This document shows, in pieces, positions 20,292 to 51,104 of a stretch of DNA of 64,000 nt. The DNA comes from a virus, in the IMG/VR virus record IMGVR_UViG_3300048838_001106, positions 1 to 64,000 of that record. One strand, 5' to 3'. The position numbers were made by a program, and so were the translations under genes. The notes beneath the pieces were generated by a model that saw only the letters and a list, made by a program, of their open reading frames with translations, did not search any database and was not told the DNA's origin. The stretch's first letter is position 1. Each line of letters starts with the position of its first letter.

Positions 20292-20398
20292 CCTCACAAA
20301 AGCCGGGACTTCCGCGGTATAAGACACTGTCCCAATCACATTGATTGTCACGCGATGTTGCGCGGCTCTCAACAACGACAACGAACAACAGGAGACGT

Positions 20399-34434: not shown

Positions 34435-37386
34435 TTAAGGCAGCGTTGGCTCAGTAGCTGGCTCTACGCGTACTTGCAGTGGCCACCCCATGATTACTCC
34501 GCCCGTGCCTCGTGGGACTACTGGAGATTCTCCAGCTACAACTACAGGAGTCGCGTAGCGACGCTGAGCACCGAAATACCATGCCACGCTGGATAGTGCA
34601 GGGAAGTCTGGCGCCAGGCCAGTCTCCGGACTGATGAGGTGTACGGTGTGGGCGTCTAGCACAGAGGCAATCGACATGCGGCGGTACACCGATTCTACTT
34701 CCACATACATTTCTCGATGCACATCCCTGGCGGTGAAATGCACTGTAAGGTCAGACAGCGTGTCGATTAACAGAGACCCTGCTGTGCTGTAGGCGCCGTC
34801 TGGCATAGCGCGAAGCAGAGTAGGTGTGTCAAACTCGAAGCCATACTCAATACCGTAGGTGTCAGCGGTATTCGTCACGGTAGAAACCAGACGCACAGGG
34901 TCTCCTGAAACGCCGACAGTCACAGGTCCTGGCGCAGCGTCGCTAAGCGTGAACGGCGCACCGACAGCTCCCCATGTTGTGCCGTCCCATGTTTCTACCT
35001 GGCAGTCTATTTCAAACGCGATATCTGGGTTGTGTACCGTCAATCTAAACACGACATCTTGTGCCTGTGCAACTTCGAGCTCGTGCGGCGAGCCGAGCTC
35101 TGCGACACGGATAGTCCCAACCCACGCTGTGTCTATGTCGGCGTATGTGTAATACTCTCCGACCAACATAGCGTCGCCCACCTTCACAGGCGATCCTGAC
35201 GCTGTCATAGTATCGGACTGGGTCAGCACTCCTATAACGTGCAAGCTGTCCGACACGAGCACCAGATCTCTGATGGCATTGATAGCTCGGATCAACAGGT
35301 ACGTGTACGCAGGGCGACCCTCAAACAGCGCTGTGCGTAAATCCTCTGTGAGTCTCGGGTATGGCACAGCTGGAAAATCTGCCAGGCGGTATTCTACACT
35401 GAACACGTGGTGCTTGAGTATTGCGTGCATCAACACATAACCAATTGTCGCTTGCAATGGTGGGCGTGTTTGCACGCGCCACTCTCTGGCTATGTCGACT
35501 GTGTAGTTTGCCTCCGCTGGCAACTGAGCTGTAGCGCCGGCCTGGTTTTTAACGCGAACGGTGTCAGGCGATACGATGTCGTATATCTCGTACACCTCCT
35601 GCGGCACGAACACAGATGTTAGCACCTTGATCTTACGGCCTATGTGTTCCGGTGCCAGACTGTACCCATGCAGCACCATCAGATCATTCCCAGCCACCAC
35701 TGTTGAGGCCGGCGTTGTGTACTGCGTATGGTTAACCAACGGCGAGACTGTGTTGGACACGCGGATGTACAAATCTGGTGCCGCAGCAATGACTTCCAGC
35801 ACGTACTTTACGTTGTCTATCCAGATAGCAGACCCAATCAATGACGGGTCTATGTACTCCTGAAAGACGTCTAGGCGCGTAGGGTCGCCGGCTCGAACGA
35901 ACATATCCTTGCCGCGATATTCAGGCACAGCACCTTGCGTGACGTCGCCACCTACCGCAAGATTAGGATCACCGACGGCCCAGTTCTTCGCGCCAACCAA
36001 GGCGCTATACAGTTGAGGGTCAACACTCCTGCGCGAGGACGATTGTCCCGGCAGTATCTCTAATGGCAGTGTCTCTCCGTGGTACCACGTGGGGTCAGTG
36101 ACATGGTCCTGGACCTTGAACACCGTAGTCAGACTCTCGAAAGCCTCAAACACATACCCGACTTCAATGTCTGTCCTGACGCTGCCATGCGGTATGGTGT
36201 ATGACTCCGTGCTTGTGGTTACAACGTCCAGCAGATCAGTTTTCTGTTCGACGCTAAGCAGTATCTCTCCGTCAGACCTGATTACTGGGATGCCGACCAT
36301 CACATTCAGCGCCGACTCGACACGGCCTGGTGTCGGTCCCATGGAGTAAAACCGCATAAGCCCTATGATGAGCGCGCGGTAAGCTTCGCTTGACGGCTCG
36401 AAGCGCTGAACCAGATAACCAAATGACAAGAACAAATCTTCGGCGTCGAACATGGCATCTGGTATCCACCAGGACATAAGCTTGACGCGCGTGCCAGACA
36501 CGTGTTGCCATTCCAAGTCAATTGCACCTTGCAAGTCCGCTATCTGTGTGTCGATCTCCACCTCTGTGGGACTCGTTACACTGACAATGCTTGCAGTATA
36601 TTGCGCTCCCTGCGCAGACAGTATGACGCTGGTCCCAGGCGACAGCACATTAAAATGCCCATCTGCAATGACGCGCCACGACAGCGCTGTGGCGTCCGGT
36701 GACAATGTGTCTGTACCGACTAGCCGCGGAGACACGACTGTTGTGATTACCCTTGCCACAGTCAGCGCAGGGTCTAATGGGTCTGTGTGCACAAGTTGTC
36801 TGCCGACATCGTCCTGCGTGAACGCATCTGTGCTTGTCTCAAATATGTAGCCTTGCTTGGCTATACCCTGGCGCCCCCTAACTGTTTCGCCAGTCCAGGT
36901 AAGTGTCGTACCGGATATGCTGGCACCACGCGCTGTCAGGTATGGCACAGGTGCGATGCTCACTTCGCGGGTCAGTGCACCAGGCGTGGAAAATGGGTCT
37001 GTAGAGAATCGGAACTCGCCATCTTCCAGTACAAAGTCCTGCGGTGTTTCTAGGGATATGGTCGGCGCGTATACCCGATTCCACAAATACTTTGCTGCTT
37101 TCATGCCTGGTGTGGCCGGGCAGCGATATGGGTATGTGTCTCCAGCCACGTATCGCATGTCTGCATAGTGGGTGGTGTACAAGTGCCAGTACTCTTTGCG
37201 AAACACTGGAGTGTGATAAACGTTACTGTTAAGTACGTTTGACAGCAGGTCTAGATACGCCTGCCCCAGCTGCTCTTCCGTGGCCGCATACAACGTCTCT
37301 AGTTGGTCTTTGTCTGCAAAGAATCTCTGCCAGAAATCAGACAGACCGGTGAGCAGCACACTAACCTGAGGAGACAGACCTGACAT
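34435..37386 (-). CDS. Baseplate wedge-like protein, large
   Basis: 983 residues; ATG overlaps the stop of the J-like gene by one base. The N-terminus ('SVLLTGLSDFWQRFFADKDQLETLY') and the long beta-rich body with repeated short domains fit large wedge components (T4 gp7/gp10-like position). Located directly after the J/gp6-like gene, as in many contractile phages. No domain can be named by motif; the call rests on gene order, size and composition. Confidence 0.65.
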   Translation of the reverse strand: MSGLSPQVSVLLTGLSDFWQRFFADKDQLETLYAATEEQLGQAYLDLLSNVLNSNVYHTPVFRKEYWHLYTTHYADMRYVAGDTYPYRCPATPGMKAAKYLWNRVYAPTISLETPQDFVLEDGEFRFSTDPFSTPGALTREVSIAPVPYLTARGASISGTTLTWTGETVRGRQGIAKQGYIFETSTDAFTQDDVGRQLVHTDPLDPALTVARVITTVVSPRLVGTDTLSPDATALSWRVIADGHFNVLSPGTSVILSAQGAQYTASIVSVTSPTEVEIDTQIADLQGAIDLEWQHVSGTRVKLMSWWIPDAMFDAEDLFLSFGYLVQRFEPSSEAYRALIIGLMRFYSMGPTPGRVESALNVMVGIPVIRSDGEILLSVEQKTDLLDVVTTSTESYTIPHGSVRTDIEVGYVFEAFESLTTVFKVQDHVTDPTWYHGETLPLEILPGQSSSRRSVDPQLYSALVGAKNWAVGDPNLAVGGDVTQGAVPEYRGKDMFVRAGDPTRLDVFQEYIDPSLIGSAIWIDNVKYVLEVIAAAPDLYIRVSNTVSPLVNHTQYTTPASTVVAGNDLMVLHGYSLAPEHIGRKIKVLTSVFVPQEVYEIYDIVSPDTVRVKNQAGATAQLPAEANYTVDIAREWRVQTRPPLQATIGYVLMHAILKHHVFSVEYRLADFPAVPYPRLTEDLRTALFEGRPAYTYLLIRAINAIRDLVLVSDSLHVIGVLTQSDTMTASGSPVKVGDAMLVGEYYTYADIDTAWVGTIRVAELGSPHELEVAQAQDVVFRLTVHNPDIAFEIDCQVETWDGTTWGAVGAPFTLSDAAPGPVTVGVSGDPVRLVSTVTNTADTYGIEYGFEFDTPTLLRAMPDGAYSTAGSLLIDTLSDLTVHFTARDVHREMYVEVESVYRRMSIASVLDAHTVHLISPETGLAPDFPALSSVAWYFGAQRRYATPVVVAGESPVVPRGTGGVIMGWPLQVRVEPATEPTLP

Positions 37387-39812
37387 CAGAGCACCTTCGT
37401 CAGAGTAATCAACGATACGTCCGACAAATATCGGATAGTCCTGTCAGTAACACCGTAAACAGACGGATCTTCAAGGCGGCGATGCGGCAGTCCAGACGCT
37501 AGTAGCTGTGGCTTCAGAACTACTGCGTCGACTGACCGGTAAGGAATCTCTCTTCCGTCTGGGGCCAGCAAGACATAGTCGGCTGTGACGGGCGACTCTA
37601 CATACCCGACAACCGTTCGGTATGTGCTGTTGAAGTACGTGACTATGTCAGACAGATGCAAGACATCCTCTGTGGTTGGAAACGAAGAGATGTACGCTGC
37701 AACCTTTGCGCGCGCGTCATCCTCATCCAGCACTGTCAGAGCATTGCTCTTCAGGCCATAGCGTATGTTCAACGACACATACACAGGATGAAAGCCTCTG
37801 ACCATTGTGTCGGCGCAGATAACTCTGTTCTGTCTGTTAGACACGTAAGCATCTATTGCTGGGAAATTTAGAATCGTGTCGTACACCACACGGCAAGGGA
37901 ATCCGTCATACTTCTTCTTCTCCGACGTCTCCCACCAGAGTCTGTTTTCTGCGACGGTGGTGGCGAGAGGGTCATCTTGCTTCTCCACACCCACCTGTGA
38001 CGGAGACACGTAGCTTGTTATCGTAAACGGTCCTCGGTTATCTGCATTCACGGCTCTGGATATGTAGAGCTCCGACCCAATCATGCCTGCATTGAACACA
38101 GCCTGTTGTGCTGTGAAGACGTTGGCGTTGTTAAACGAACCACCCTGGCCTGTGTATGCTGGCGCAGGGCCCACCTCGACTGTCATGAACTGCTTAGAAG
38201 ACTGTGCCTCAAGAGGTTGCGAATTCCTAACGCGAAACTGAGCAGACGCGGCGCCTGGTGATGCTACTGGCTCTTGATTAACTCGGTTGACAAATTCTAC
38301 ACGCCCGGTAACCGCGTCAGTGTCTGGGTCTGCCGCGTTAAGCACCGACACCTCTCGGATAAGATACACCGGCTCCGACGGCAACAGCACGTGGCCGTCT
38401 TCTCGGTACTCTCGCGAGAATTCACCTGTGGTCGCTTCCAGGGTCTTCTGGTTGTATAGCGGCGCGTTGTTACCTATGGAGTAGATAACCACGTCAGACA
38501 ATATTTCAATCTGCAATCCGCTTTCGACCACGAGGGTTGCTGGCGACAGTGTTACCGAGTTCATGGCAGGGTCAACTGCGGTGATTAACCTGTCTGCATT
38601 GTTCGCGGCGTTAACCCCTCCTGCAATTCGAACATATCTCCCAAGATCAGATCCTGAAAAATTAGCTGCCGAACTTTGGAGTGTGTTTGCGTTAAGCGCT
38701 GCTCCGTCTGAATATGTAGCGGTGCCTCGGGGATATCCAGGTCGCACATCGGGGAATTCTTGCTTCGTTGACAGCTCTAGAAAGTGCCGTGTAACTCGCC
38801 CAATGACGTAAAGACTTCGCTCGGACGCAGACGCATTGATGTGTCTAAGTACATCCCCTGCCGCCACGCCGGTGGCGCGCCAGTCTGGTACGGAAGTGTC
38901 CTTGAATATGCGGATGCCTGGCCTGGTGTCTGTGAAGATGCCTCCAACAACGCCTTCGAAAACGCGACGAGTTGCGATTGGAGTAGCGACATACACGTCA
39001 ATATGTCCGCCAGTGTGAACGTTGTAGGGAGACGCCAGGTCTGCGCGATCTCGTTGCATGGAGGGATCTCCATGACCTATGACGGTCAAGAAATCTATGA
39101 GCGGGAACAGATCGGTGAGCACCGTGTCAATACTTCTCTCCGAGTTCAGATCCCGGACAGTTATTGCAGTAGCAGCACGCGCAAGGAGTTCTTCTGTCGT
39201 CTCTGCGTCTTTGGCACCGACAAACGCAGCGTCATTTTCCATGCCGCGCACGAATCGATTAAAAGACGGAACGTCAGCGAACGTTCCAGGTGGCAACTCG
39301 TACGCGGACCCTGGCCGCTCAGCAATGACCGGAACACGCAGTGCGTACCCGGTTATGAAGCCATTGGTGTTGTACCTTGGGGTCAAGTTGTTCGCCGAGT
39401 AGACCAGCGCACCAACGTTGTCCAAAAGAAACCGGCGGCCACTAGTCCGGGTGAACACGGCATTGGCAGGCACCGCCCCATCGTGAAGTTCTGAGAAAAT
39501 GATCAGAGCCGTGCCGCGAACCTGTCGCCCTGTTCGACGGGTAATAAACCAGTTGGCAACCAGGTTGTCTACCGCATCATCATAGTCTTCTAGTGATGCC
39601 AGCTGGGACACAGTTCTAAGACTTGTGCCCAGCCTGACGTTCCTGGCCTCTGCCCGCAGCAGTGCAATCGAACTGGCCAGCGCGCTTATCGTATGGTCAC
39701 GCGTTATCGACCCCGCAGACAGGTCAGCATCGGGCAACAACTCTGACAAAAAACCTACCAGGAAGTCTTCTGCCTTCTTCCTGTCAGCATCAGATATAAC
39801 GAGCTCTGTCAT
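37386..39812 (-). CDS. Baseplate J-like (T4 gp6-type) wedge protein
   Basis: 808 residues, ATG start. The N-terminus has 'DLSAGSITRDHTISALASSIALL', the usual start of J/gp6-family wedges, followed by 'VPANAVFTRTSGRRFLL' (the baseplate J 'VPAGT' region) and repeated beta units; the C-terminal part has 'YVSLNIRYGLK' and 'DILHLSDIVTYF'-type segments seen in J proteins. These proteins form the ring that holds the baseplate together and starts sheath contraction. Preceded by a gp25-like and followed by a large wedge gene, supporting a contractile tail. Confidence 0.82.
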   Translation of the reverse strand: MTELVISDADRKKAEDFLVGFLSELLPDADLSAGSITRDHTISALASSIALLRAEARNVRLGTSLRTVSQLASLEDYDDAVDNLVANWFITRRTGRQVRGTALIIFSELHDGAVPANAVFTRTSGRRFLLDNVGALVYSANNLTPRYNTNGFITGYALRVPVIAERPGSAYELPPGTFADVPSFNRFVRGMENDAAFVGAKDAETTEELLARAATAITVRDLNSERSIDTVLTDLFPLIDFLTVIGHGDPSMQRDRADLASPYNVHTGGHIDVYVATPIATRRVFEGVVGGIFTDTRPGIRIFKDTSVPDWRATGVAAGDVLRHINASASERSLYVIGRVTRHFLELSTKQEFPDVRPGYPRGTATYSDGAALNANTLQSSAANFSGSDLGRYVRIAGGVNAANNADRLITAVDPAMNSVTLSPATLVVESGLQIEILSDVVIYSIGNNAPLYNQKTLEATTGEFSREYREDGHVLLPSEPVYLIREVSVLNAADPDTDAVTGRVEFVNRVNQEPVASPGAASAQFRVRNSQPLEAQSSKQFMTVEVGPAPAYTGQGGSFNNANVFTAQQAVFNAGMIGSELYISRAVNADNRGPFTITSYVSPSQVGVEKQDDPLATTVAENRLWWETSEKKKYDGFPCRVVYDTILNFPAIDAYVSNRQNRVICADTMVRGFHPVYVSLNIRYGLKSNALTVLDEDDARAKVAAYISSFPTTEDVLHLSDIVTYFNSTYRTVVGYVESPVTADYVLLAPDGREIPYRSVDAVVLKPQLLASGLPHRRLEDPSVYGVTDRTIRYLSDVSLITLTKVL

Positions 39813-39813
39813 A

Positions 39814-40269
39814 CTATCTCCTGATAGATCGCGTCGGCAGAATGAATTGAAGAGCCCTGCCCGCCTGATTCTTTAACAAGATGGTTACTTCGAAGCCGGC
39901 GCCGTTGTCGTCTACAACTAACGAGGTCATCTTGGCAGACTGCAATATGTCTTCAGGATCATCGCTTGGGTCCATGCTCTGGTATCTGAATAGTGTAGCT
40001 TCTGCTTTGGATACAGCTGTCGACACAATGTCCTGCAGGTCTTGCGCGGAAGTTACGTTCGACCCTATGAGAGCCGGGAAACGTGTGCCATTAGACCTGT
40101 CAGACAGATCTGTACCCTCTAATGTCATCAGTGTCTTCAGGAACTTGTTGATAAGCTTCTGAAAACCTCTAATGCCTATGTGCTTCTGAAACCCATAGAT
40201 GAACGTGGCATAGCCATCGACTTGCTCAGACGCGGGCTTCAGCTGGATGTATGTGTCAAATGTACTCAT
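39814..40269 (-). CDS. Baseplate wedge protein, possibly gp25/W-like
   Basis: 151 residues; ATG overlaps the lysozyme stop by one base. A helical first half ('FQKHIGIRGFQKLINKFLKT', then 'LEGTDLSDRSNGTRFPAL') and a beta C-terminus ('FEVTILLKNQAGRALQFILP'). Position between the tail lysozyme and J protein and the 'GTD...G' turn fit a gp25-type or similar small wedge unit. Family assignment is by context. Confidence 0.55.
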   Translation of the reverse strand: MSTFDTYIQLKPASEQVDGYATFIYGFQKHIGIRGFQKLINKFLKTLMTLEGTDLSDRSNGTRFPALIGSNVTSAQDLQDIVSTAVSKAEATLFRYQSMDPSDDPEDILQSAKMTSLVVDDNGAGFEVTILLKNQAGRALQFILPTRSIRR

Positions 40270-41927
40270 CAGTCACCGAGAGGGGCGTCGCCATATCGAA
40301 CATCATAACTCTTTTCGATACGTTTGCGCACCTCAGGATAATTCAAACTGGCGGTGTCGTACACTTGTTTTCTGGTGACGTTGGCAAGTGCCTCGTCTCT
40401 CATCAGCCCTGAGGTTATATCGTACATGCTTCCAAGCACCGCGTACTGCGACGGAGAGGTAGCGTCCTCTCTGCTCTCAGCCACACTGTTCATGACCTTG
40501 TTTATTGGTGACGTAGGCGACACATACGGGTCAGTTGGCAGAGGAGAATTTACCAGCATGGCAATAGGATCAATGCGGTAGCTGTTCGCGTTGCCAACTG
40601 CTGTCAGCCTGTTTGATTCCAACGGTCTGCCCTGAATGAGCTGTCGCTGTACCAGTATTTCAAAGTGGAGGTGCGGCGTTCGCACAGAGTTGTGCGGAAG
40701 AACTTTGCCGCCGGACTTTCGCCCCTGCGTAATGCCTGCCAGACCGATTGGTTGTGCCCGTGTAACACGATCCCCTGTCTTTACAAAGAACTTGGACATG
40801 TGAGCATAGCGCGAGCTGAACCCGTTATTGTGGTCAATGTAAACCACGAGGCCGTAAGACTCGCTGACGTCTGCCCGCACCACCACCCCGTCAGCTATTG
40901 CGTACACAGGCTGGTTGGGGTTGTTCTGCGTCAGGAAGTCCACGCCCTTGTGCAAACGCACACGCTGTTGTCCTGTGACGGGGTCAATGCCAAGACGCTC
41001 AGCCCCAGCATTCCCTGTAGACACTGCCTTCGTGCGGCGCTTCTGGAAAGGACTCAGCACCTGAATCGTTGTGAGAGGCCATACAAGTCCCAGTGCCTTG
41101 TTGTCATCGACTGACAGGGTAAAAGTTTTTACGCTGTCATCGTTCAGAATATAGTCGATGATCCGCGTGGACGCGGCGTTGGCTTCGTTAACTCTGAGAC
41201 CATCAAACGTCGCTTCATACCGTGTCGTAAACGCCTGAATGTCAATCTGGATTTTCTTAGTGCGCGCAGCACTGACGCGTCTTACTTCAACGGCGGCTTC
41301 TGCGCCAACCTCTCCGCCCTGCACTCCCCACACAGAGAAGTCACCAGCAGACCTGTTGCACAACGGCAGTCTGTATGCAGAGGGCGGTGTGTTGACAGCG
41401 CCGGACGGCAGCGTCTGCGCAACAGACACAAACTGCTCTGCGTTGTTAGACCACTTAGACATGTTCGCGCGCATGCGTTGCATGTACGTGAACACCGCGC
41501 CATTCCCCCACACCGTGTTCAGATACTCGTCCGCTGCCGCATCGCCATCGCCGATGAGTTTGATGTCTAAGTACGTCGCAACTACGTCGTCCCTTGTCCC
41601 CCATAGAAGAGCCATAGCTTCGTAGTTGTAACCGTGTATCTCGGCGTAGCTCTCCATGTATTGCAGGAAAGCCGTGACGGCCTCAGATGGTTTGCCGACA
41701 TAATCTACAGGCTTGCTGTTGTTAACCAGCGCTGCCTTGCGCTCGTCGATACCGAACAGTCCCGCAGATGTGTTGTTGTTGACCGAAAAATCTGGGTCAA
41801 GACCTGACTGATAGTCTGCAACTGCAAGAACAAACCAATCAGGATACAGGTACTCTGTAAGCCCTGTGTCCTCCCTGACTTTTGGAAGAATGACGGTCCG
41901 CAGTTGTGTTTCAATTTCGGACGCCAT
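40269..41927 (-). CDS. Tail lysozyme with M23 peptidase domain
   Basis: 552 residues, ATG start. The N-terminal ~150 residues resemble a lytic transglycosylase-type helical domain ('WFVLAVADYQSGLDPDFSVN', then 'SAGLFGI'). The C-terminal domain is a lysostaphin-type M23 zinc endopeptidase with all ligands: H326-x3-D330 ('LHKGVD'), H376 in 'YAHMS' and H419-x-H421 in 'PHLHFE'. It would open the peptidoglycan during infection, locally at the tail tip. It sits between the effector cassette and baseplate genes. Whether the N-terminal domain is active is uncertain. Confidence 0.88.
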   Translation of the reverse strand: MASEIETQLRTVILPKVREDTGLTEYLYPDWFVLAVADYQSGLDPDFSVNNNTSAGLFGIDERKAALVNNSKPVDYVGKPSEAVTAFLQYMESYAEIHGYNYEAMALLWGTRDDVVATYLDIKLIGDGDAAADEYLNTVWGNGAVFTYMQRMRANMSKWSNNAEQFVSVAQTLPSGAVNTPPSAYRLPLCNRSAGDFSVWGVQGGEVGAEAAVEVRRVSAARTKKIQIDIQAFTTRYEATFDGLRVNEANAASTRIIDYILNDDSVKTFTLSVDDNKALGLVWPLTTIQVLSPFQKRRTKAVSTGNAGAERLGIDPVTGQQRVRLHKGVDFLTQNNPNQPVYAIADGVVVRADVSESYGLVVYIDHNNGFSSRYAHMSKFFVKTGDRVTRAQPIGLAGITQGRKSGGKVLPHNSVRTPHLHFEILVQRQLIQGRPLESNRLTAVGNANSYRIDPIAMLVNSPLPTDPYVSPTSPINKVMNSVAESREDATSPSQYAVLGSMYDITSGLMRDEALANVTRKQVYDTASLNYPEVRKRIEKSYDVRYGDAPLGD

Positions 41928-41936
41928 GATGTGTCA

Positions 41937-42413
41937 TTAGCCGCGTGCTTGGTTGTACAAAGCGCGGAGCTTGGACTCAGTATCGAAGTCCGTACCAAGA
42001 TACTGGTTCGACGCATTTCGAAGATCGTTCTGCCACGTGTCGGCGTCAGTCATTCCATAGCCTAGACCCACAGCACCCGCGCCTGCTGCGCCTACGCCGG
42101 CTGCGCCTTGCGCTCCCTGCATGATTTGTTTCCGCAAATGAGCCTCTGCCGGGTCTCCGATAACTTCGAACGCACCGTCCATCGCTGGCTGCATATTCCG
42201 GAGCGCTTTGACATTCTGCGGCAGGTCCATCATCGCCTGCATCCTGCCAGCAGTCTTTGTCTGCTGTGCAGACTCCACCACAAGCTGTGCCATCTTCATG
42301 AGTGCTGGGTGGCCAGACGACGCGGCGTGATTGACGAAGTCAACAGGGTCAACATTGTGCTCTGCGAGCTTTGTCATAATGCCGTGAACGTATGCTGTTT
42401 TCTGTGTGCTCAT
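41937..42413 (-). CDS. Cassette protein with shared N- and C-terminal tags
   Basis: 158 residues from ATG 42413 (AAGGAAG upstream); the ORF upstream of this lacks support. N-terminus 'AYVHGIMTKLAEHNVDP' fits the cassette's aromatic-x-G...K-x-A pattern. A Gly/Ala-rich hydrophobic helix (about residues 108-126) precedes the C-terminal tag 'YGMTDADTWQNDLRNASNQ' and then LGTDFDTES. The same tag ends the proteins at 42439, 44177 and, in weaker form, 48672. Function unknown; probably virion-associated. It is the last cassette gene before the tail lysozyme. Confidence 0.7.
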   Translation of the reverse strand: MSTQKTAYVHGIMTKLAEHNVDPVDFVNHAASSGHPALMKMAQLVVESAQQTKTAGRMQAMMDLPQNVKALRNMQPAMDGAFEVIGDPAEAHLRKQIMQGAQGAAGVGAAGAGAVGLGYGMTDADTWQNDLRNASNQYLGTDFDTESKLRALYNQARG

Positions 42414-42438
42414 TTTATATCTTCCTTTCAAGTGGTGG

Positions 42439-42882
42439 TTAACTGACCAGATTTCCAAACCGTGATTTCGTGCTAAAGTCTGTGCCTAGCATTCTATTAG
42501 ACGCCCGAACTGCCCTGTTCTCCATAGTGTTTGCGTCTCCCATACCGTATGCAAGGCCTCCCACACCAAGTGCTGTGCCCCCGAGACGCTTAGCGCCTTT
42601 TCCAGCTTGGCTACGAAGAACATCCGAGCGCTCGGTAGCCCTGTCTGCTGCTCGTGTGTTTCCGGTTGCTCTGTTGTCCAATGCCCTTTCTGTGTGGATT
42701 TTTGACTTCTTCCAGTCTCCATGAATGCGGCGCGGGTCCATCGACTTCACAAAGTCTACGCCTTTATCGACAAGCTTCCCTGCCTGTGTACCAAGGTTGG
42801 CAACCTTCTCTGTGGTCTCAATGTCAAGCCCTGAGCATGACAGGACATGTAACATACCGATACTATAAAAATCATTGCTCAT
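42439..42882 (-). CDS. Cassette protein with C-terminal LGTDF tag
   Basis: 147 residues, ATG start. N-terminus 'FYSIGMLHVLSCSGLD' fits the shared leader. The middle is Arg/Lys-rich and helical, followed by a Gly-rich helix and the tag 'YGMGDANTMENRAVRASNRM' then LGTDFSTKSRF. Very basic overall, which would suit DNA or membrane contact. Likely a virion protein; function unknown. Confidence 0.7.
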   Translation of the reverse strand: MSNDFYSIGMLHVLSCSGLDIETTEKVANLGTQAGKLVDKGVDFVKSMDPRRIHGDWKKSKIHTERALDNRATGNTRAADRATERSDVLRSQAGKGAKRLGGTALGVGGLAYGMGDANTMENRAVRASNRMLGTDFSTKSRFGNLVS

Positions 42883-42937: not shown

Positions 42938-44155
42938 TTACCATTGTATTGACGCGCCGAATCCTCTGGAATTGCTTGTGTCGTACATGCTCTTGCCTGC
43001 CAGTCCTGCGCCGAGCCCCGCTGCGGCTAGGCCTGCAATGCGCGCGGCGCGTCCTCCGGTGTTGATCTTGCGCAACACATCGTCGCGAGTCAACACGGGG
43101 TCAATCAATCCTGTGTACTGCTTAGCCCAGTCTTGGTACGTCGGCTTCATTTTCACGCTTGCAGCTTCTAAAATTGGGTCTCCGCTACCGCCGCGGCGTA
43201 AGGGTGCGCCGTCTTCCAAGATCTCGTTCAACCATGCGCGCCTGTCAGATGCGGGCATTTTATTGACATCCGGCTCACCATAATGAAGTGCGCGTTCTTC
43301 AACAAATTGTGTGATTTTTCTTTCTGCATAGTCCCCAAGACTGTCAGTGGTGTACAAAGGTGTCTTCCTGTACAAGTCGTCTTGAATGTGCCCGGCGTCG
43401 TCCCCCCTAATTGCAGCTCTCAGATGCGCAACGTATTGTTCTGGGTCTGCGCTCTCCATATGCCTATCGGCGCGCCCGAGCGCGAAACTGAGGTGTGGAT
43501 TGTCAACCGAGTCGCGCATGATTCTTCGAAACTCTTTGCCGTCCACAGGCATGCTGTCTACATCCGTGCCCTCTGGCAACGTTGCGGCCATCTGCCTTGC
43601 AGTTTCGTATCTTCTTCGTAAAAAATCCTTTCTGAAATCTTCTGGGTCTGCGCCCTCTGTTTCCCGAAACATATGCTTTGCTGCTTGAAGAGGCCCCTCT
43701 GAGAAATTTTTGTAGTGCTCTTCGCTAGCGGAGTCGAATGGCTGCAGCAGTCCAGCGCTCTGCAAAAGCGGAGACAATTTCCCTGTCCGGACCTTCTTAA
43801 CTAATTCTTGTCCCGTGATTGTGCTGCCGTCTCGCAGCGGCATTTTCTGATTAAGCAGGTCAGAACTCATGTCGGCGTACTCGCCTAAGGACATGCCTGA
43901 TCCTGTCAGTCGCTTGTATTCCCTCAACTTATCTGCAGTGTCATCGGCCAGGATTGACCCCTTCGTGTAATTCACGGCTCGATGTCCTGCTACTCCCGCG
44001 CCAAGTCCTGCACCTGCACCTGCCACTCCTAAATACATCTCAGGCTGATCTGCCAGATTCTCTCTCTGAGAACCAAAAGACACATTGAAAGCAGTTTTAG
44101 TGCGGCGCAGCCCCGCTGCGTGCAATGTCTGGCTGTATCCAGCGTTATAAAACAT
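42938..44155 (-). CDS. Cassette protein with Gly/Ala-rich helices
   Basis: 405 residues from ATG 44155 (GGAG six bases upstream). The leader 'YNAGYSQTLHAAGL' matches the cassette pattern. Hydrophobic Gly/Ala helices occur near the N-terminus (about 44-58, 'GVAGAGAGLGAGVAG') and C-terminus (about 375-390), the rest is polar helical. Its C-terminus (YDTSNSRGFG) shows only a remnant of the shared tag. Glycine-zipper-like helices at both ends would suit a protein that enters membranes during DNA ejection; this is inference. The 55 bases upstream of the next gene (42883-42937) hold no clear signal. Confidence 0.65.
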   Translation of the reverse strand: MFYNAGYSQTLHAAGLRRTKTAFNVSFGSQRENLADQPEMYLGVAGAGAGLGAGVAGHRAVNYTKGSILADDTADKLREYKRLTGSGMSLGEYADMSSDLLNQKMPLRDGSTITGQELVKKVRTGKLSPLLQSAGLLQPFDSASEEHYKNFSEGPLQAAKHMFRETEGADPEDFRKDFLRRRYETARQMAATLPEGTDVDSMPVDGKEFRRIMRDSVDNPHLSFALGRADRHMESADPEQYVAHLRAAIRGDDAGHIQDDLYRKTPLYTTDSLGDYAERKITQFVEERALHYGEPDVNKMPASDRRAWLNEILEDGAPLRRGGSGDPILEAASVKMKPTYQDWAKQYTGLIDPVLTRDDVLRKINTGGRAARIAGLAAAGLGAGLAGKSMYDTSNSRGFGASIQW

Positions 44156-44176: not shown

Positions 44177-44947
44177 TCACCCGCCAAATGCGTTGCTGAA
44201 GCGAGACTGCGTTTTGAAGTCGGTGCCGAGATTCTTGTTGGCAGCCTGTCGAATCTTGTTGCCAGTCGTGTCGGCGTCGCCCATGCCGTATGCTGTAGCG
44301 CCCGCAGCTCCGAGGCCTGCTGTGCCCGCTCCTCCAATTATTGCGCCCTGTACGCCACGTCTTGCGCGGCCTTCTGTCTCCAGAGCCCGTAGAAGTTCGA
44401 AGTGCACCGCATTGTTTTGAAAATTGTCGGTGATCCCCGACAGCTCAGACGCTTCTCGGAAGCTTGGGTGGTGTAGATCTACGTTGTACCTGTTTCCCTG
44501 CTCATTGAGAGTCCTCTCAGCTCCGAACCCGTAACTCGATGGCTCTTGGCGTTTTCTTGAAATGAAGTCGTCATCTAGTCTACGTAGGTTCGATGGCGCA
44601 TTCCATATGTCGCTTAGCCACTCGCCAGGGCCGCCGCCCATGCTACGCCTTAGTGCGTAATCCATGGGTTCCACGCCGGGTATCATATCGCCTATCTCGC
44701 GTGCCGTTGCGTAAGGGTCGCTTAGTCTTTTTAGACCTCCCATCACTGTGTGTGCGCCAAAAAGGCCGTCCAATGGTACGCGTGCATTCACTTCTTTTTG
44801 TATGCTGGGTGCGTCAAAAAGATCGCCTACAGCACCTCCGGCTCCACGTATTGCCGCCGATGCCTGTTTGCTGTCTGACACCATGTTCAGATCTAACAGC
44901 CCCGCCGCACTAGCAACCTTCGCTAGCCCAAATGTGTAAGCGTCCAT
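44177..44947 (-). CDS. Cassette protein with full N- and C-terminal tags
   Basis: 256 residues, ATG with AAGGAG six bases upstream. Leader 'DAYTFGLAKVASAAGLLD'; a Gly-rich segment near residue 35; a helical middle; a second Gly/Ala helix (about 200-218); then the clearest copy of the C-terminal tag, 'YGMGDADTTGNKIRQAANKN' followed by LGTDFKTQSRF. No enzyme motif. Its tag is most similar to that of the 147-residue protein. Confidence 0.7.
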   Translation of the reverse strand: MDAYTFGLAKVASAAGLLDLNMVSDSKQASAAIRGAGGAVGDLFDAPSIQKEVNARVPLDGLFGAHTVMGGLKRLSDPYATAREIGDMIPGVEPMDYALRRSMGGGPGEWLSDIWNAPSNLRRLDDDFISRKRQEPSSYGFGAERTLNEQGNRYNVDLHHPSFREASELSGITDNFQNNAVHFELLRALETEGRARRGVQGAIIGGAGTAGLGAAGATAYGMGDADTTGNKIRQAANKNLGTDFKTQSRFSNAFGG

Positions 44948-44958
44948 CCTAAACTCCT

Positions 44959-46857
44959 TCAGTCCATAATCTCTGAAACTTTGTCGATAATCCGTCGCTT
45001 TCTATACGAAAGCTGTCCCTGCGTCAGGCCCGTCTTCGCTGCGAGCTGTGGATTGCTCAAGATAGGCTTTCCGGAATAGCCTGTCGAGTGTTCAAAGATG
45101 AGTTTGTCGATTGGGTCCATGTCGAAGTATAGCATGTCCACCAGGCCGTCGTCGGAATCTGAGCCCCACACACTCTTTCGCTCGAACAACCCTGCTCCTG
45201 TATCGAGCGACTCAATCAACTCTGGCCTCATTGAGCGCTGCACATCGGCGACCATCTTGCGAGACCACCCTAAGTGATCTGCCAGCTCGACGTCCGTCGG
45301 CTCACGGCCGTTCAGACTCATCAACTCTTCGGTGCTTCTGTGATACGCATTGAACTTGAGCTTCTTGTACTCCGGCACACGCACAGCGTCTTGATGTGTG
45401 TAGACCTCGCGACTGATCTTCTTGAGCCTGTTTGTGACATGCGTTGCCAGCGCTGCGCCGGCGTTTGGGTTGTACGATTTGATGGCTTCGAGAGCCAGGC
45501 CTTTCGCTTTTGTCTCCAGGACAGGCCTGGAGATTGCGCCTGCCCATCGATTGACCTCGGACTGAATAACCGGATCAAGCTGCTGCATCAGAGGCTGAAG
45601 TGTGTGTGGGCCGGGGTTCGCTTTGTAGGCCTCCCACAGTTCGATGTCGCGGGTTTTTACGCTGGATCTTTTATGCATGCCTGTTGTTACTAAGTTCTCT
45701 AGCTCTAGCATGTCACCTCCAGGTAACGGCTTCCACCTGCGGCTCAATGCGGGTCTTAGTGCGTGATCTGTGACAATCTTCTCATAAGTAGGTGAGTTGT
45801 TAACTCTTCGCGCAGGGGAGTATCCACTATTCTGATGCCGTATGTGGTCTATACCTTCGGGCACGATGTCCCCTTCTTCGTAATGGCGTTGCCACGCGCT
45901 CTGATCTTTTTTAGGGATCTTTCGAGTGTCGTACTCAAACACGCGGCTTGTACCGTCGCGGTGTCTTTCCCAGGCAGTTCCTGGGATATGAGACGCCGCG
46001 GCGTACTCCATGGCCACTTCAGGATGTGCAGTTGTCCATCGCAAGTCGTCCGGCGCCGAAAACCTACTTCGCGGGTTGTGCGTTGTACCGTGGTATGCAG
46101 CGCTGCTCGGGGCGTAACCCTCTCCCATAATTGGTTGACCGTCTCTGGTTACTGTATTGGGAGACATCACTTTTTTATTGGGATGTCCGGCCAGTGTCTT
46201 AGCTCTAGCCGACGGTGTCTCGTCCATACGTCTCTTTAGCGTCACCGCGTCGTTCATGCTCCACGCAGACTGTTCTCGCAATGCGTTAAACTCTTCAATT
46301 TTAGCTTTGTTTACGGGGTCGTCAAAGTACTTGCTCTTTATCCTGGGGGTCATGTGGTCAACTAGCGGTGCTTCGGTCTGAGGTATGCCCAAGTGTGTTT
46401 GGAGCGTGCGTTTAAGTTTTCCAGCAGCGCCAAGTGCTGATGACAACAGAGTCGGCGGTGATGCAGTGTGTGGTATGTTTGCTTCTTGTGCCGCCAATGC
46501 GTCGAAGAAGATTCGGTTATACTGGTTTCGGATTTCGGTATTAAACCGGTCTAAGTCTTCTCGAGACACGACACGAACTTCTCTGCGCGGCACCACACCT
46601 CGCTTTAACGCTTCTTCGCGCATACGTGCTGCAGGGAAGTACTCAGGAGATAATTTCTCTGCGTAATCCACAAGTGCGGCCGCTGTGTTGCTTGGAACGC
46701 CGGTCCAGTCATTTGTGCGCATTGCATTCATTAAAGTGTCGGCAGTCACGTCGCTAGGAATAGCCCCAGCACCCTGAAGTTTTTGGATCATCTTGGTGCT
46801 GATTGCGGTCTTTTCCATACCAGGTGGTGGGCCGACCGTCTTATTCTGCATCGTCAT
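44959..46857 (-). CDS. ADP-ribosyltransferase-like / sigma-70-like fusion protein
   Basis: 632 residues, ATG with AAGGAG four bases upstream. Middle part: 'AYHGTTHN' (255-262), 'WTTAHPEVAMEYA' (274-286) and 'IVPEGIDHI' (331-339) match the order of conserved pieces of ADP-ribosyltransferase folds (HGT, strand with Ala-Tyr, final Glu). Residues ~405-632 match sigma factors: region 2-like 'AIKSYNPNAGAALATHV', region 3-like 'GREPTDVELADHLGWSRKMV' (517-536), region 4-like 'KLIFEHSTGYSGKPILS' with a helix-turn-helix and 'SYRKRRI' recognition helix (about 604-623). It lies in the virion operon, so it could be packaged and delivered to redirect transcription. The leader 'GMEKTAI' fits the cassette only weakly. 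Domains are by eye. Confidence 0.75.
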   Translation of the reverse strand: MTMQNKTVGPPPGMEKTAISTKMIQKLQGAGAIPSDVTADTLMNAMRTNDWTGVPSNTAAALVDYAEKLSPEYFPAARMREEALKRGVVPRREVRVVSREDLDRFNTEIRNQYNRIFFDALAAQEANIPHTASPPTLLSSALGAAGKLKRTLQTHLGIPQTEAPLVDHMTPRIKSKYFDDPVNKAKIEEFNALREQSAWSMNDAVTLKRRMDETPSARAKTLAGHPNKKVMSPNTVTRDGQPIMGEGYAPSSAAYHGTTHNPRSRFSAPDDLRWTTAHPEVAMEYAAASHIPGTAWERHRDGTSRVFEYDTRKIPKKDQSAWQRHYEEGDIVPEGIDHIRHQNSGYSPARRVNNSPTYEKIVTDHALRPALSRRWKPLPGGDMLELENLVTTGMHKRSSVKTRDIELWEAYKANPGPHTLQPLMQQLDPVIQSEVNRWAGAISRPVLETKAKGLALEAIKSYNPNAGAALATHVTNRLKKISREVYTHQDAVRVPEYKKLKFNAYHRSTEELMSLNGREPTDVELADHLGWSRKMVADVQRSMRPELIESLDTGAGLFERKSVWGSDSDDGLVDMLYFDMDPIDKLIFEHSTGYSGKPILSNPQLAAKTGLTQGQLSYRKRRIIDKVSEIMD

Positions 46858-46865
46858 ACGTCTCC

Positions 46866-47639
46866 TTACATCCCTTCTCGAACTGTGTTCGCCGCGTCTA
46901 CTGCAAGTCCACCAGCTAGCATCGCACTTAATGCCCCTCCTGCAAATCGACCTGGGTGCTTGCGAAGATACGTCCCCATGTCACCCAGAGACTCTCTCAG
47001 CACGCTGTGTTCTTTGTTGCCTACGCCGCCTCGAATGTACTTGGGGTCGACGGGAAATTCCGACGTGGCAGCTACGGTATGCTTACTGGCTTCCCACCCT
47101 GATGGCGTGTCTTGACCCATAAGAAAGTCAGGGTCGTGACTAAACCTGTCAGCGAACTGCGTGTACGGCATGTCTATGGTGACTGTGCGGGGGTGTCCAA
47201 AGAGTAATTCTTTAGCTTTGCCACGTGCCAGTCTAGCTTCCACTCCGTCAAGGTCGGTTCCTGCCAATGCGTTTAATTCATCCTCATTCATCACCGAAAA
47301 CGTGTTCGCAATAACCGACTGTGGCGTAACGTGAATCTTGTTTTTGCTGTTTTCGACGAAGTTTCCGTCGATGAACGATGCTCCTGTTCCGCCGTACTCA
47401 GGGCGCAGCCCTTCCCGAAGGATTGACTTGTGAGCATCATCAGACGCCGTACCGTGATACAGACGCTGCTGATTAGTCAAGCGGCTGTACGCGCCTGGTG
47501 CCAGCGCGCCAGCTATGCCTACCTGGGCAGCCGCGCCTGCGTAGTCGCCTACGCCCGGCTTATCCGGTTGTTCCAGGCCCAGGCTTTCCATGATGCCTGC
47601 TGTTTTGATGATGAGGTTGTAGCCATCGGTGTAGTTCAT
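46866..47639 (-). CDS. Cassette protein with ADP-ribosyltransferase-like domain
   Basis: 257 residues, ATG start. Leader 'DGYNLIIKTAGIMES' matches the cassette; a Gly/Ala helix lies at about 32-50. The main domain begins 'LYHGTASDDAHKSILREGL' (60-78), continues with 'IHVTPQSVIANTF' (102-114), 'TVTIDMPYTQF' and ends near 'VDPKYIRGG', the typical order of PARP-type ADP-ribosyltransferases. The usual Glu near the last motif is Lys, so activity is doubtful. A C-terminal hydrophobic helix with 'DAANT' recalls the shared tag. T4 Alt is a known virion ADP-ribosyltransferase. Confidence 0.7.
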   Translation of the reverse strand: MNYTDGYNLIIKTAGIMESLGLEQPDKPGVGDYAGAAAQVGIAGALAPGAYSRLTNQQRLYHGTASDDAHKSILREGLRPEYGGTGASFIDGNFVENSKNKIHVTPQSVIANTFSVMNEDELNALAGTDLDGVEARLARGKAKELLFGHPRTVTIDMPYTQFADRFSHDPDFLMGQDTPSGWEASKHTVAATSEFPVDPKYIRGGVGNKEHSVLRESLGDMGTYLRKHPGRFAGGALSAMLAGGLAVDAANTVREGM

Positions 47640-47642
47640 AAT

Positions 47643-48641
47643 TTACTTCTGCGTTACAGGCTTCATTGCGTAGCCAACTTGGTCTCCGTCACGTGCGCGG
47701 CGAACGGTGTACTCTGCGACGGGCTCAGGGATCATGCTGGGCGTTACCATGGTCTCATAAGTTGGGTGTCTTCGGCCGGCGATGACGTCGGATCTAGTCC
47801 TGGGATGCCACTTGCCGTCTTGTAATGGAGTCTCAGGTCTATTCACCAACTTGCCGTCCGCAAACCATTGGCGGCTGTACTCACCGGTTGGGTCGGAAAT
47901 GCGATTTGTTCTGAGCTGGTTTAGGTCCTCTGCGCGCGCGTTTATGTATTCTTGCGGCCCAATTCCTTGCCAATCTGCAGATGCCTCGGGGATAGGGCTG
48001 CCTAGTACTGGATCTTGTTTGAAGTCTGACTTTCTGTAGGCAAACATTCGGTTCGTATGTGGGCTATACCCACCCAGAGCAGCGTCACCGCTGGCGTACC
48101 CCGCTGCAACTTCGGGATGCCTGGACATATAAAACAGCTCTTTCTCTGAAGCCACATCTACTGGGTTGCCTCGATATAATATGTCGCCCGGCGCGTCTGA
48201 GTTTTTTCGAATGAACTCGGCATTGCCAGCAGATGGTACGAACGACTCACCTGGTTTTGGTGCGTGAGCTCCACTAAACCGCCGGTCAAGAGCTTGGCGT
48301 GCTGTGGCCTGTTGCAGTGTACTACTACTACGCGTTCTCAACACGTCTCGGTACGCATGGTGCGGAATCGTTAGTCTTGCTGGAGGACTATTATCATGGA
48401 ATATGCGCGCCCATGCAGGACCGAGTGATTTTTCGATTTCCGCGGTTCCTAGCAACGCATTTGAAAAAGCGTTTTGTCCCTCATGACCGGGTACAAAAGC
48501 ATTGATATTCCGGTTCGGTCCTTGAAACGATTTAGCGTATTCTGGATATTGCTCAGATAGACGCTTGTATAGTTCGCGCATCGGGCGATTCATCGCCACC
48601 TTTTCCACCAACGCTACACCTTCCCAGTATGCACTGCTCAT
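47643..48641 (-). CDS. Cassette protein, ADP-ribosyltransferase-like paralogue
   Basis: 332 residues from ATG 48641; a GTG four codons earlier is possible but too close to its purine run. Leader 'AYWEGVALVEKVA'. The catalytic-type pieces are 'DILYRGNP' (153-160), 'FYMSRHPEVAAGYA' (170-183) and 'IGPQEYI' (227-233, E231). 'HPEVA..YA' and a later 'RHPTYETMVT' are shared with the first half of the sigma-fusion protein (HPEVAMEYA, NSPTYEKIVT), so the two are related. LYRG plus a final Glu suggests an active transferase. Substrate unknown. Confidence 0.68.
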   Translation of the reverse strand: MSSAYWEGVALVEKVAMNRPMRELYKRLSEQYPEYAKSFQGPNRNINAFVPGHEGQNAFSNALLGTAEIEKSLGPAWARIFHDNSPPARLTIPHHAYRDVLRTRSSSTLQQATARQALDRRFSGAHAPKPGESFVPSAGNAEFIRKNSDAPGDILYRGNPVDVASEKELFYMSRHPEVAAGYASGDAALGGYSPHTNRMFAYRKSDFKQDPVLGSPIPEASADWQGIGPQEYINARAEDLNQLRTNRISDPTGEYSRQWFADGKLVNRPETPLQDGKWHPRTRSDVIAGRRHPTYETMVTPSMIPEPVAEYTVRRARDGDQVGYAMKPVTQK

Positions 48642-48671
48642 GCTCGTACTCACATCCCGTTATTAAAAGAT

Positions 48672-48926
48672 CTACATCATCCATCGTCTGTAATTCGACT
48701 CATTTTCGAGGTCCGTTCCAAGTGCGTCGTTCGAAATATTTCGAAGATCGTTAGCTACCGTTCTAGCGTCATTCCACGGGGCGAAGCCGCCGGTGTCTAG
48801 TAGAATACCTGTTGTTCCCACTGCACCTAGAGCGGATGCGGCATGTAGATGGGACAATTCTGGCAGCTTCGTCATCAACCCCGCAACCTTCATTGCGCGC
48901 CGATATCCCATCTCGTAGCTATTCAT
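48672..48926 (-). CDS. Small cassette protein, minimal leader plus tag
   Basis: 84 residues, ATG 48926. It consists almost only of the shared parts: leader 'YEMGYRRAMKVAGLMTKL', a short Ala/Gly hydrophobic helix, and the C-terminal tag 'NDARTVANDLRNISNDALGT' followed by DLENES. It therefore shows which parts define the family. First cassette gene after the baseplate hub, four bases from its stop. Confidence 0.7.
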   Translation of the reverse strand: MNSYEMGYRRAMKVAGLMTKLPELSHLHAASALGAVGTTGILLDTGGFAPWNDARTVANDLRNISNDALGTDLENESNYRRWMM

Positions 48927-48929
48927 GTC

Positions 48930-51104
48930 TTATCCTCTATAGGCAGTTTGTGTCTGGTACACTCGAGCCCTGTAGGCTAGAAGCCTCTCCTGCCACGACC
49001 TCGATGAATCTGATTCGCTTATCCTACACGGATTGCCATCTACGTCTACGCTTTCTTGCTGAGCAATATCCTCGTTAGACACAAGAATTTGGACGTAATA
49101 CGGAGCGCCGTGCCCCTCACTTGGGCTGCTGGCGGATACTAACCCGCGTCTGGTTCCTCGGTCGCCTTGTGCATCGATGAATTGTTCAAGTGTGCAGATG
49201 GGTCTAGCGGCATATGTAAATGCAGCCTCCGGGTCATCCATAAATCTGCGGTAGCCGGGAGTAAGGCGAAAGTCAGGCGCTTCGCCGGTCACAGGCGACG
49301 ACACCACGCGCTCCGCGTTTTCCTTGTTCAATTGAATGGGTTCAATTATGCCTTCATCGCCTCGCAAGCCGAACACCTTCAGCAGGTCAAACAGCACCTT
49401 GTCTTTTGGCTTGTCGGCGCCGTAGAACATCCGCTGGTAATACTCGGACGCTTTTGCTTTTGTTTGGAAAACATCACGTATCGCCTGCACGGGGTGTTCT
49501 GGAGCGATAGATGGTGTGTTGTCGGTGATCTCGTCTATCCCCTCCTTGACCATCTGGTCCATCAGCAGGTCAATGACTTCGGATATCGGAGTGGCATACG
49601 TCATCGACACCTGTGTTGACATGTTCTCCTGCGAGAATGAATGATTGATTTGCGTAACATATGCGATGAGATGAACGCTTGAGTGTTCATTGTCGATAAT
49701 TGCGCTCGGGCATCCTGGTACTATGTATGGATTGTATGGTCCTGATGTGCCCGCATTTCGCTGTGCGGCGCGTGTCCGAAGATGCTCGTACCTGCAGAAC
49801 TTGTACTGAAGCGCGGCGTTCGCTGCACTGGTTCTTTCTGTCTGTTGAAGAAACATGTACCACGTAGGTGTGTTCATGTTGTTGTACACTGGGCCTTTGA
49901 AACGCTCTTCTTTGGTTATGAAGTTGAACACGCTCTCCTCGGAGTGATCCCCTGTTTTCTTCCGAGACAAGCGTTCGTTGGCTTCTGCCGGGTAACCCAC
50001 AGTAAGAGCCCTTGTTAGAACGTCGTTCGGTGACTGCTGCGCGAGCATATTCAGGACATGTGGATTGCCAAGGTATGTGCGCGTCGGCTGACGGGCGTAA
50101 GATTCGTCGTAGGAGAACTGCTCAATCATGCTTGGCCATAGAACGTTGAATCTTGGCGGAATACCAAATATGGTCTGAGGCTTAGTCATGTACGACGCCA
50201 CAACGTTGCGCAGTCTTGGTGGACCACCAGCTACCGTGTCTTCTCCAAAAGGCTCTCGCGTTGTCTCGTCCACCAGCAAGTAGGGCGCGGTGGGCAACAT
50301 CAGAAGCTCGTAATACATCGCCTGAAAGATGGTGGTAACGATGTTGTAGAACGATCCCTGGTCAAGCTGATTGCCCATCTTCGCTAAAGCCTCGATAGCG
50401 GATGTCGACTGCGTGGCTTTTAAGATAGGAAAAATGTGCGGCTCTGCATCTGCGTCGACGCCCACCAGGGATTCGACAAGCACAGATGGTACAAAGCGAT
50501 CTTTGAATTTGACCCTGTCCACCCATGGCTTAAACCATTGTTTGATAACCTCGGCCTGGTCAGACGACGGCATGGTGTCGCCAGACAGGTACTTGATCAG
50601 GCCCTCAACAAACTCAAATGGCCTTCGAATTTTATTGCCGCTCACAAAACCTGTTGTCAGCAAGCCATGCGTCGGTGCGAATGGATTGTTGACAAGCGTT
50701 GTGCCTCCTGTCGTGGACGTCTGCCCCTGAATAATGGTGTTCAGAGACTTAACGACATAAGGGAACAACCTGGTCAGAGACTCCATGAAGTCTACTGCTG
50801 TGTACGATATGTTACGTCCGCCTCCAGTTGACGAGTATGAGAAATTCGTAATCTCACCGTCAAAGGCAAGTCTGAACTCTGGCTTCTTGCCTTCAACTCG
50901 TGCCTGATGCGGATCTAAAGCAAATATCGTTAGCCGAACACGGTCGTCCCTGCCTATTCTTTGAAACACCCTGTCTGCCGGAAAGGTGACAGTTGCAGTG
51001 GGTATTGACCATACTCCGTAGGATATCTGTGCAGATATTGCGGGGCACTGCACGCCTTGCACATACACCAACCAACTCGCCCTGTTGACATACGCTGCAG
51101 TCAT
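48930..51104 (-). CDS. Baseplate hub protein (T4 gp27 / gpD-like)
   Basis: 724 residues; ATG overlaps the previous stop (TCATG on the + strand). The N-terminal 110 residues look like the first domain of hub proteins ('WSIPTATVTFPADRVFQRIG', then 'FDGEITNFSYS', 'ISYTAVDFMESLTRLF'). A beta-rich body follows, with a C-terminal part rich in loops. The hub joins tail tube and spike and frames the channel to the cell. Gene order (tape measure, small tail genes, hub, lysozyme, wedges) supports the call. Confidence 0.75.
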   Translation of the reverse strand: MTAAYVNRASWLVYVQGVQCPAISAQISYGVWSIPTATVTFPADRVFQRIGRDDRVRLTIFALDPHQARVEGKKPEFRLAFDGEITNFSYSSTGGGRNISYTAVDFMESLTRLFPYVVKSLNTIIQGQTSTTGGTTLVNNPFAPTHGLLTTGFVSGNKIRRPFEFVEGLIKYLSGDTMPSSDQAEVIKQWFKPWVDRVKFKDRFVPSVLVESLVGVDADAEPHIFPILKATQSTSAIEALAKMGNQLDQGSFYNIVTTIFQAMYYELLMLPTAPYLLVDETTREPFGEDTVAGGPPRLRNVVASYMTKPQTIFGIPPRFNVLWPSMIEQFSYDESYARQPTRTYLGNPHVLNMLAQQSPNDVLTRALTVGYPAEANERLSRKKTGDHSEESVFNFITKEERFKGPVYNNMNTPTWYMFLQQTERTSAANAALQYKFCRYEHLRTRAAQRNAGTSGPYNPYIVPGCPSAIIDNEHSSVHLIAYVTQINHSFSQENMSTQVSMTYATPISEVIDLLMDQMVKEGIDEITDNTPSIAPEHPVQAIRDVFQTKAKASEYYQRMFYGADKPKDKVLFDLLKVFGLRGDEGIIEPIQLNKENAERVVSSPVTGEAPDFRLTPGYRRFMDDPEAAFTYAARPICTLEQFIDAQGDRGTRRGLVSASSPSEGHGAPYYVQILVSNEDIAQQESVDVDGNPCRISESDSSRSWQERLLAYRARVYQTQTAYRG

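Follow-up and report, generated by a model that had tools for sequence, protein, structure and literature searches.

A sigma-70-family factor joined to an effector-like domain in the tail operon of an uncultivated phage with a predicted multisubunit RNA polymerase

Introduction

Reviews describe polymerase-encoding jumbo phages as having no sigma factor and sigma-encoding ones as having no polymerase (PMC7824862, PMC7598289). AR9 uses gp226, a protein without sequence similarity to sigma (PMC7598289, PMC7824862). Among proteins delivered with the virion, the internal proteins of T4 are diverse and share only a capsid-targeting sequence (PMC3012670). Here we describe a protein of 632 amino acids (aa) with an effector-like N-terminal half and a sigma-70-family C-terminal half. 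It is encoded in the window, by which we mean the whole stretch analysed: the first 64 kilobases (kb; 64,000 nucleotides) of the 156,269-base uncultivated virus record IMGVR_UViG_3300048838_001106.

Salmonella phage Arash carries an orthologue of the sigma half, gp10. Mass spectrometry of purified Arash virions recovered gp10 with 100% coverage, 24 unique peptides and 467 spectra, a level comparable to that of the baseplate-region proteins gp13 (517 spectra) and gp14 (474), and the same virions contained the polymerase chains beta (gp206, 3516 spectra) and beta' (gp216, 1210) (PMC10585845). The authors named gp10 among the virion enzymes possibly acting early and did not discuss a phage holoenzyme (PMC10585845). 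We find that the fusion in the uncultivated phage is real and more interesting than stated in a first-pass annotation of the sequence: the target of its sigma half is probably the phage's own polymerase.

Results

The gene for the fusion protein (44959..46857; this and all features below are on the minus strand unless noted) is a single uninterrupted open frame with AAGGAG four bases 5' of its ATG. It is followed at higher coordinates by genes for a 257-aa protein (46866..47639) and for a protein of 332 or 336 aa (47643..48653), counted either from the ATG at 48641 or from the upstream GTG at 48653 and ending at 47643. All three lie within a tail/baseplate operon, and the coordinates and sizes first assigned to them were correct. 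A misassembly artefact was judged an unlikely source of the fusion, because the gene is one open frame preceded by a ribosome-binding site and because a relative has another enzyme-sigma fusion at the same junction.

The C-terminal 235 residues are, on homology and predicted fold, a genuine sigma-70-family factor for which core binding and promoter initiation are predicted. The domain (residues 398-632; 44962..45666) was recognised by homology, profile matches to the Protein Data Bank (PDB) and predicted fold, and these confirmed the earlier call of a sigma-70-like domain. Arash gp10 matches residues 395-632 in tblastn (3e-21), three Vibrio phages match the same residues, and phrog_351 matches the sigma half at 6e-7. 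A profile of eight orthologues gave 61 PDB matches at E<=0.01 (best 1.4e-8), and the 60 listed were all sigma factors. An AlphaFold model of the sigma part, built from nine sequences with a predicted local distance difference test score (pLDDT) of 72.6, has helical blocks at regions 2, 3 and 4. Structure prediction followed by Foldseek, proposed as a check in the first-pass annotation, returned a sigma fold: all 50 matches listed were sigma factors or sigma-RNA polymerase models at probability 1.00. The low global template-modelling scores of these matches probably reflect an unsettled domain arrangement in the model.

The three regions were said to be recognisable, and for regions 2 and 3 this held in full. 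Region 2, the core-binding and -10 recognition part (residues 417-493; 45379..45609), was delimited from the helices of model ma14f257db52c and the PDB profile alignment. Region 3 (residues 496-542; 45232..45372) was read from the model and from Pfam Sigma70_r3, which spans residues 503-544 at E 9.5e-5, just under its cut-off, and reaches 1.2e-8, above the cut-off, in the sigma of a relative that is 69-70% identical. Region 4 comes from the model, in which a region 4-like block of four predicted C-terminal helices (residues 570-631; 44965..45150; pLDDT about 80-90) follows a low-confidence linker; Foldseek matches were full-length, whereas a Pfam match to region 4 was not found in the 632-aa protein.

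The sigma gene occupies the same operon slot as its counterparts in Arash and Vibrio phage D69. The upstream boundary is a tail hub-like structural protein (48930..51104) orthologous to D69 gene 9 and Arash gp8, and the downstream boundary is a baseplate protein (39814..40269) orthologous to Arash gp12 and D69 gene 13, beyond which lies a baseplate J-like protein (37386..39812) identified by orthology to Arash gp13. The order terminase, tape measure, hub, sigma, gp12-like, J-like and gp14-like matches both phages (the Arash set being gp8-gp10-gp12-gp13-gp14), and the slot is, as judged from this order, ancestral. The suggestion that the sigma fusion might travel in the virion gains from its place in a virion operon, and its presence in the particle is likely by way of the Arash orthologue (PMC10585845).

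The same genome encodes, on profile and motif evidence, a multisubunit RNA polymerase whose active-site motif is intact. Beta and the N-terminal part of beta' form a 1610-aa fusion (record 150411-155243) that matches Rpb2_6 at 3e-53 and Rpb1_2 at 7.5e-25, the C-terminal beta' chain of 975 aa lies at record 146983-149910, and Rpb1_5 is found in the polymerase at 1.4e-13. An alignment made by eye shows the NADYDGD active site as well as a clamp-helix-like segment of much the same length as its bacterial counterpart. The flap region of beta aligns to bacterial beta. The polymerase genes are located among head genes, an arrangement shared with Arash, where the polymerase adjoins the portal gene. 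Within beta, a GNAT acetyltransferase domain is inserted at about residues 623-716 (Pfam 1.4e-8; record 150411-155243, also L011:8411-13243); the Arash polymerase aligns on both sides of this stretch, with a gap at GNAT itself.

Sigma and polymerase were found together across the lineage. A polymerase-only search of viral contigs yielded 114 stretches that encode a relative. The sigma was present in 17 of the 46 polymerase-selected records searched, including all 11 of at least 140 kb, which sets them apart from the sigma-less phiKZ-type group 1; records lacking it were all shorter than 135 kb and may be fragments. Among 50,697 phage records, the four with a full polymerase, which are isolates, were the same four that carried a full-length sigma. 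Over 23 phages, sigma distances tracked polymerase distances (Spearman 0.75), and none of 2000 permutations gave a value as high. Because the phage encodes a polymerase beside its head genes, and because sigma and polymerase accompany each other across the lineage, the sigma is likelier to serve the phage enzyme. Another relative of the sigma, 37% identical and encoded on a 50-kb contig (L013:9989-10714), is interrupted by TGA; reading TGA as a sense codon reveals more long frames on this contig, which suggests that the phage is recoded.

Arash, D69 and most other members encode the sigma alone, as a protein of about 230-255 aa. In the nearest relative (IMGVR_UViG_3300028374_000008), a canonical NUDIX domain (PF00293, 8.6e-14) is joined to the same sigma at the same junction, and in a third phage about 110 unrelated residues that include GLEKTA precede it. 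The next nearest relatives, with sigmas 43-47% identical, have no fusion. Fusions number three among the 23 sigma genes compared. On this distribution, sigma fusions look like a recent habit of the sublineage.

A promoter-like motif is shared with the nearest relative. The site CACAAA-N16-GGTATAAG (20295..20322, plus strand) stands 28 nucleotides upstream of gene 20345, and in the relative GGTATAAG stands 30 nucleotides upstream of the orthologous gene, so its position is conserved. The element GGTATAAGAA occurs 4 times here against 0.1 expected and 5 times in the relative against 0.03 expected. The extended pattern CA[CG]AAA-N15-18-GTATAAG occurs 5 times here against 0.03 expected, always in noncoding DNA, its -35 part having been read from these same sites. 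Sites of the form CACAAA-N16/17-GGTATAAGAA lie at 20295-20322 in the window and at record positions 93098, 94236, 94647 and 95177; the GGTATAAGAA part is common to both phages, whereas conservation in the relative does not extend to the -35 part. The spacing is sigma-70-like and the hexamers differ from the TTGACA/TATAAT consensus, and host-type promoters (TTGACA-N16/18-TAnnnT) were not enriched in noncoding DNA. The CACAAA-16/17-GGTATAAGAA motif fits a phage-specific sigma, and we infer that the phage sigma may read the GGTATAAG motif as a promoter.

The N-terminal half of the fusion contains a domain (residues 240-390; 45688..46140) that we name HPEVA/PTYE after its motifs. It matches a 475-aa paralogue encoded at 98105-99532 of the same genome at 3e-17, and an N-terminal 'MEKTAISTKMIQKL' segment of the fusion (residues 13-56; 46690..46821) is 45% identical to residues 18-61 of that protein. 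The sigma fusion and the 332/336-aa protein had been called paralogues, and this was borne out, since a profile built without the latter recovers it as the sole extra match in the genome (E 3.6e-5). Five copies of the domain have, for the most part, Y[HR]G followed by W.T.HPEVA..YA and then SP.YE, with Y, W, D, W, H and SP.YE invariant over the five sequences.

The domain resembles ADP-ribosyltransferases by motif (YHGT; WTTAHPEVAMEYA; SPTYEKIV), these motifs following patterns presumed to be typical of such enzymes. The five members matched no Pfam family at E<=5, the ART-PolyVal family (PF18760) was found neither in this genome at E<=10 nor in 33 related records at E<=0.01, and no PDB sequence matched the domain; an AlphaFold model from the five sequences had a pLDDT of 41 and was discarded. 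What stands of the original assignment is thus the motifs: the domain appears to be of effector type, and calling it an ADP-ribosyltransferase is a motif-level guess. Relatives of the effector domain or of the 475-aa paralogue were not found in bacterial genomes, plasmids or phage records.

In other phages of the lineage the domain keeps the company of other enzyme domains. It occurs twice in a 1934-aa polyvalent protein (contig L052), beside InPase and LigD phosphoesterase domains, with an EKTAxNxRLL segment before each copy. A 199-kb record (L152, record G021) joins a head maturation protease, the HPEVA/PTYE domain and an InPase-like domain in one frame of more than 1000 aa. The phages of the 1934-aa protein and of the protease fusion both encode the same polymerase type. 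This genomic context supports a putative injected effector, because the domain occurs both in a polyvalent protein and in a head maturation protease fusion. The 632-aa protein likewise has disparate domains, effector and sigma, in one chain encoded in a tail operon.

Many proteins around the sigma, and in a second cluster at 95.6-101.7 kb of the record, begin with a SYxxGYxxxMKxAGL-like sequence. In the nearest relative, tagged proteins also lie beside the head protease gene, and one has a weak R2K ATP-grasp match (0.0012). With a matrix made from seven tags of the relative only, five proteins of the two clusters scored above all 9450 shuffles, and two of the next three matches were also in the second cluster. 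The neighbours of the 632-aa protein thus share a short N-terminal tag while being otherwise unrelated, which is reminiscent of the T4 capsid-targeting sequence and suggests a putative role in packaging.

One tagged neighbour is the 257-aa protein, whose tag score was reached by none of the 9450 shuffles. It has a possible PARP/KptA-like fold by motif (LYHGTASDDAHKSILREGL), with a weak Pfam match to PARP (E 0.16, below the cut-off). As a third paralogue it was rejected: the profile search of the genome detected no sequence relation between it and the 632-aa or 332/336-aa proteins. Its relatives were not found in phage records or viral contigs.

Other neighbours are an 84-aa protein with the strongest tag (SYEMGYRRAMKVAGL; 48672..48926), a tagged 405-aa protein (42938..44155) and a 256-aa protein with a tag-like N-terminus (44177..44947). 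The 256-aa protein also has the C-terminal motif YGMGDADT..LGTDF.T.SRF, as do a 147-aa protein (42439..42882) and a small protein read from an ATG (MSTQKTAYVHGI...; 41937..42413, within the frame 41937-42458). In its fuller form, YGMGDADT..N..R.A.N..LGTDF.T.SRF, this C-terminal motif is common to four small proteins (41937-42458, 42439-42882, 44177-44947 and 48672-48926). An M23 peptidase structural protein (40269..41927; Pfam 5.6e-25) lies next to this group. The second tagged cluster (record 95647-101675) holds the 475-aa paralogue, a 217-aa protein with an ADP-ribosyltransferase motif (VYHYAPPASVDSIMTHGL) and a 365-aa kinase-like protein (LGTGGEGIADLVAHKGQLVARK); both functional labels were assigned by eye only.

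Discussion

We propose that in the 632-aa protein this phage has its own form of a sigma that is specific to the lineage and carried in the virion. The sigma would most likely be packaged together with the multisubunit RNA polymerase that the phage encodes and, once ejected, would confer promoter specificity on that enzyme for the first phage transcripts. An effector-type domain, ADP-ribosyltransferase-like by motif, is fused at its N-terminus, so that an enzyme and a promoter factor may be delivered as one chain, and the tagged neighbours may also be effectors that are injected, brought in by the N-terminal tag that they share in the manner of the T4 capsid-targeting sequence. We put the probability of this joint reading (a virion-carried sigma serving the phage polymerase, fused to an effector and co-injected with tagged neighbours) at roughly 0.55. 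Within it, packaging in this phage is argued by analogy with Arash, the pairing of sigma with the phage polymerase is inferred, and ADP-ribosyltransferase activity is predicted from motifs. A broader generalisation, to which we give somewhat less than even odds, is that a widespread lineage packages both a polymerase and a true sigma-70, and that some of these sigmas double as a chain for interchangeable enzymes (ADP-ribosyltransferase-like, NUDIX) acting on the host or the transcript at the start of infection.

Several observations weigh against our proposal. None of the library and structure tests applied bore out the ADP-ribosyltransferase assignment. The 632-aa protein itself has no N-terminal tag, only the EKTA segment that is also seen in the polyvalent copies. 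Two phage genes are expected to be co-inherited even without a physical partnership. Finally, the Arash virion preparations held 116 proteins, metabolic enzymes included, and the authors allow for carry-over of abundant proteins (PMC10585845).

The ejected sigma might instead bind host core polymerase and steer it towards the early promoters of the phage, with the attached ADP-ribosyltransferase modifying the host enzyme, as though T4 Alt had been joined to a sigma. Sigma-bearing phages without a polymerase are thought to work by such redirection (PMC7824862, PMC7598289), T4 Alt is packaged in the head and modifies host RNA polymerase (PMC5512222), and sigma regions 2-4 resemble host-type factors. 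We nevertheless regard this as unlikely, given that the phage has a polymerase of its own, with an intact active-site motif and encoded in the structural gene region, that the sigma tracks this polymerase across the lineage, and that in most members it stands alone with no effector domain attached. The emphasis of the first-pass annotation on taking over host transcription is therefore probably wrong, although the sigma fusion on which it was built stands.

Two further alternatives concern the fusion itself. We think it rather improbable that the halves act separately, with the sigma freed by an internal start or by head-protease proteolysis and the fusion serving mainly as a packaging or co-expression device. 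An ATG at residue 383 (about 45711), preceded by GGAGGTGAC and with GGAGGT 3 nucleotides 5' of it, does lie near the start of the relatives' stand-alone sigmas, and many proteins of the virion region have an EKTA-like segment close to the N-terminus; yet GGAGGT encodes the conserved LPGG motif of the effector domain, and its position may be coincidence. We give least credence to an incidental fusion in which the sigma is functional and the N-terminal domain persists as a decaying or structural remnant devoid of enzyme activity. Such a view accords with the rarity of fusions (3/23 sigma genes) and with the failure of every library to recognise the N-terminal domain as an enzyme, but it sits poorly with an independent enzyme-sigma fusion in the nearest relative (NUDIX, E 8.6e-14) and with the retention of SPxYE and other residues across distant copies of the domain. 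A virion-carried sigma that works with the phage polymerase, and brings an effector with it, remains the reading that we prefer.

This lineage has a polymerase and a sigma in its virion gene clusters, a pairing that reviews exclude, and both have been detected in particles of one isolate. A virion-packaged phage holoenzyme is therefore directly testable in cultured phage Arash. If enzymes are indeed swapped on the sigma N-terminus, this would be a new coupling of promoter recognition with modification of the host or the transcript.

Among known systems, Arash is alike in having an orthologous sigma in the same operon slot and the same polymerase type (gp10 with gp206/gp216), both found in its virions; its sigma differs in being a stand-alone protein of 234 aa with no effector domain, and no tagged neighbours were seen (PMC10585845). 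The NUDIX-sigma fusion of IMGVR_UViG_3300028374_000008 places a nucleotide-type enzyme on the same sigma, the NUDIX fusion itself being absent from this phage. Jumbo phages of the phiKZ/AR9 type share a phage-encoded, virion-associated multisubunit polymerase, its virion location here being extrapolated from Arash; they have no sigma, whereas in this phage the polymerase comes with a bona fide relative of sigma-70 (PMC7598289, PMC7824862). T4 Alt and the T4 internal proteins offer a parallel, in that diverse injected proteins carry a short N-terminal tag, an ADP-ribosyltransferase is in the virion and Alt-type genes lie near baseplate genes, features to which the putative effectors and the motif-level transferase domain described here may correspond; the tag sequence differs, there is no Alt family match, and T4 Alt is not fused to a sigma (PMC3012670, PMC5512222). 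Like the fusion, polyvalent proteins combine disparate effector domains in a single chain and are encoded among virion genes (Iyer et al., 2017, PMC5512222; the word 'sigma' was not found in the main text of that paper). In comparison with them, the 632-aa protein is short and has two modules, one of which is a transcription initiation factor.

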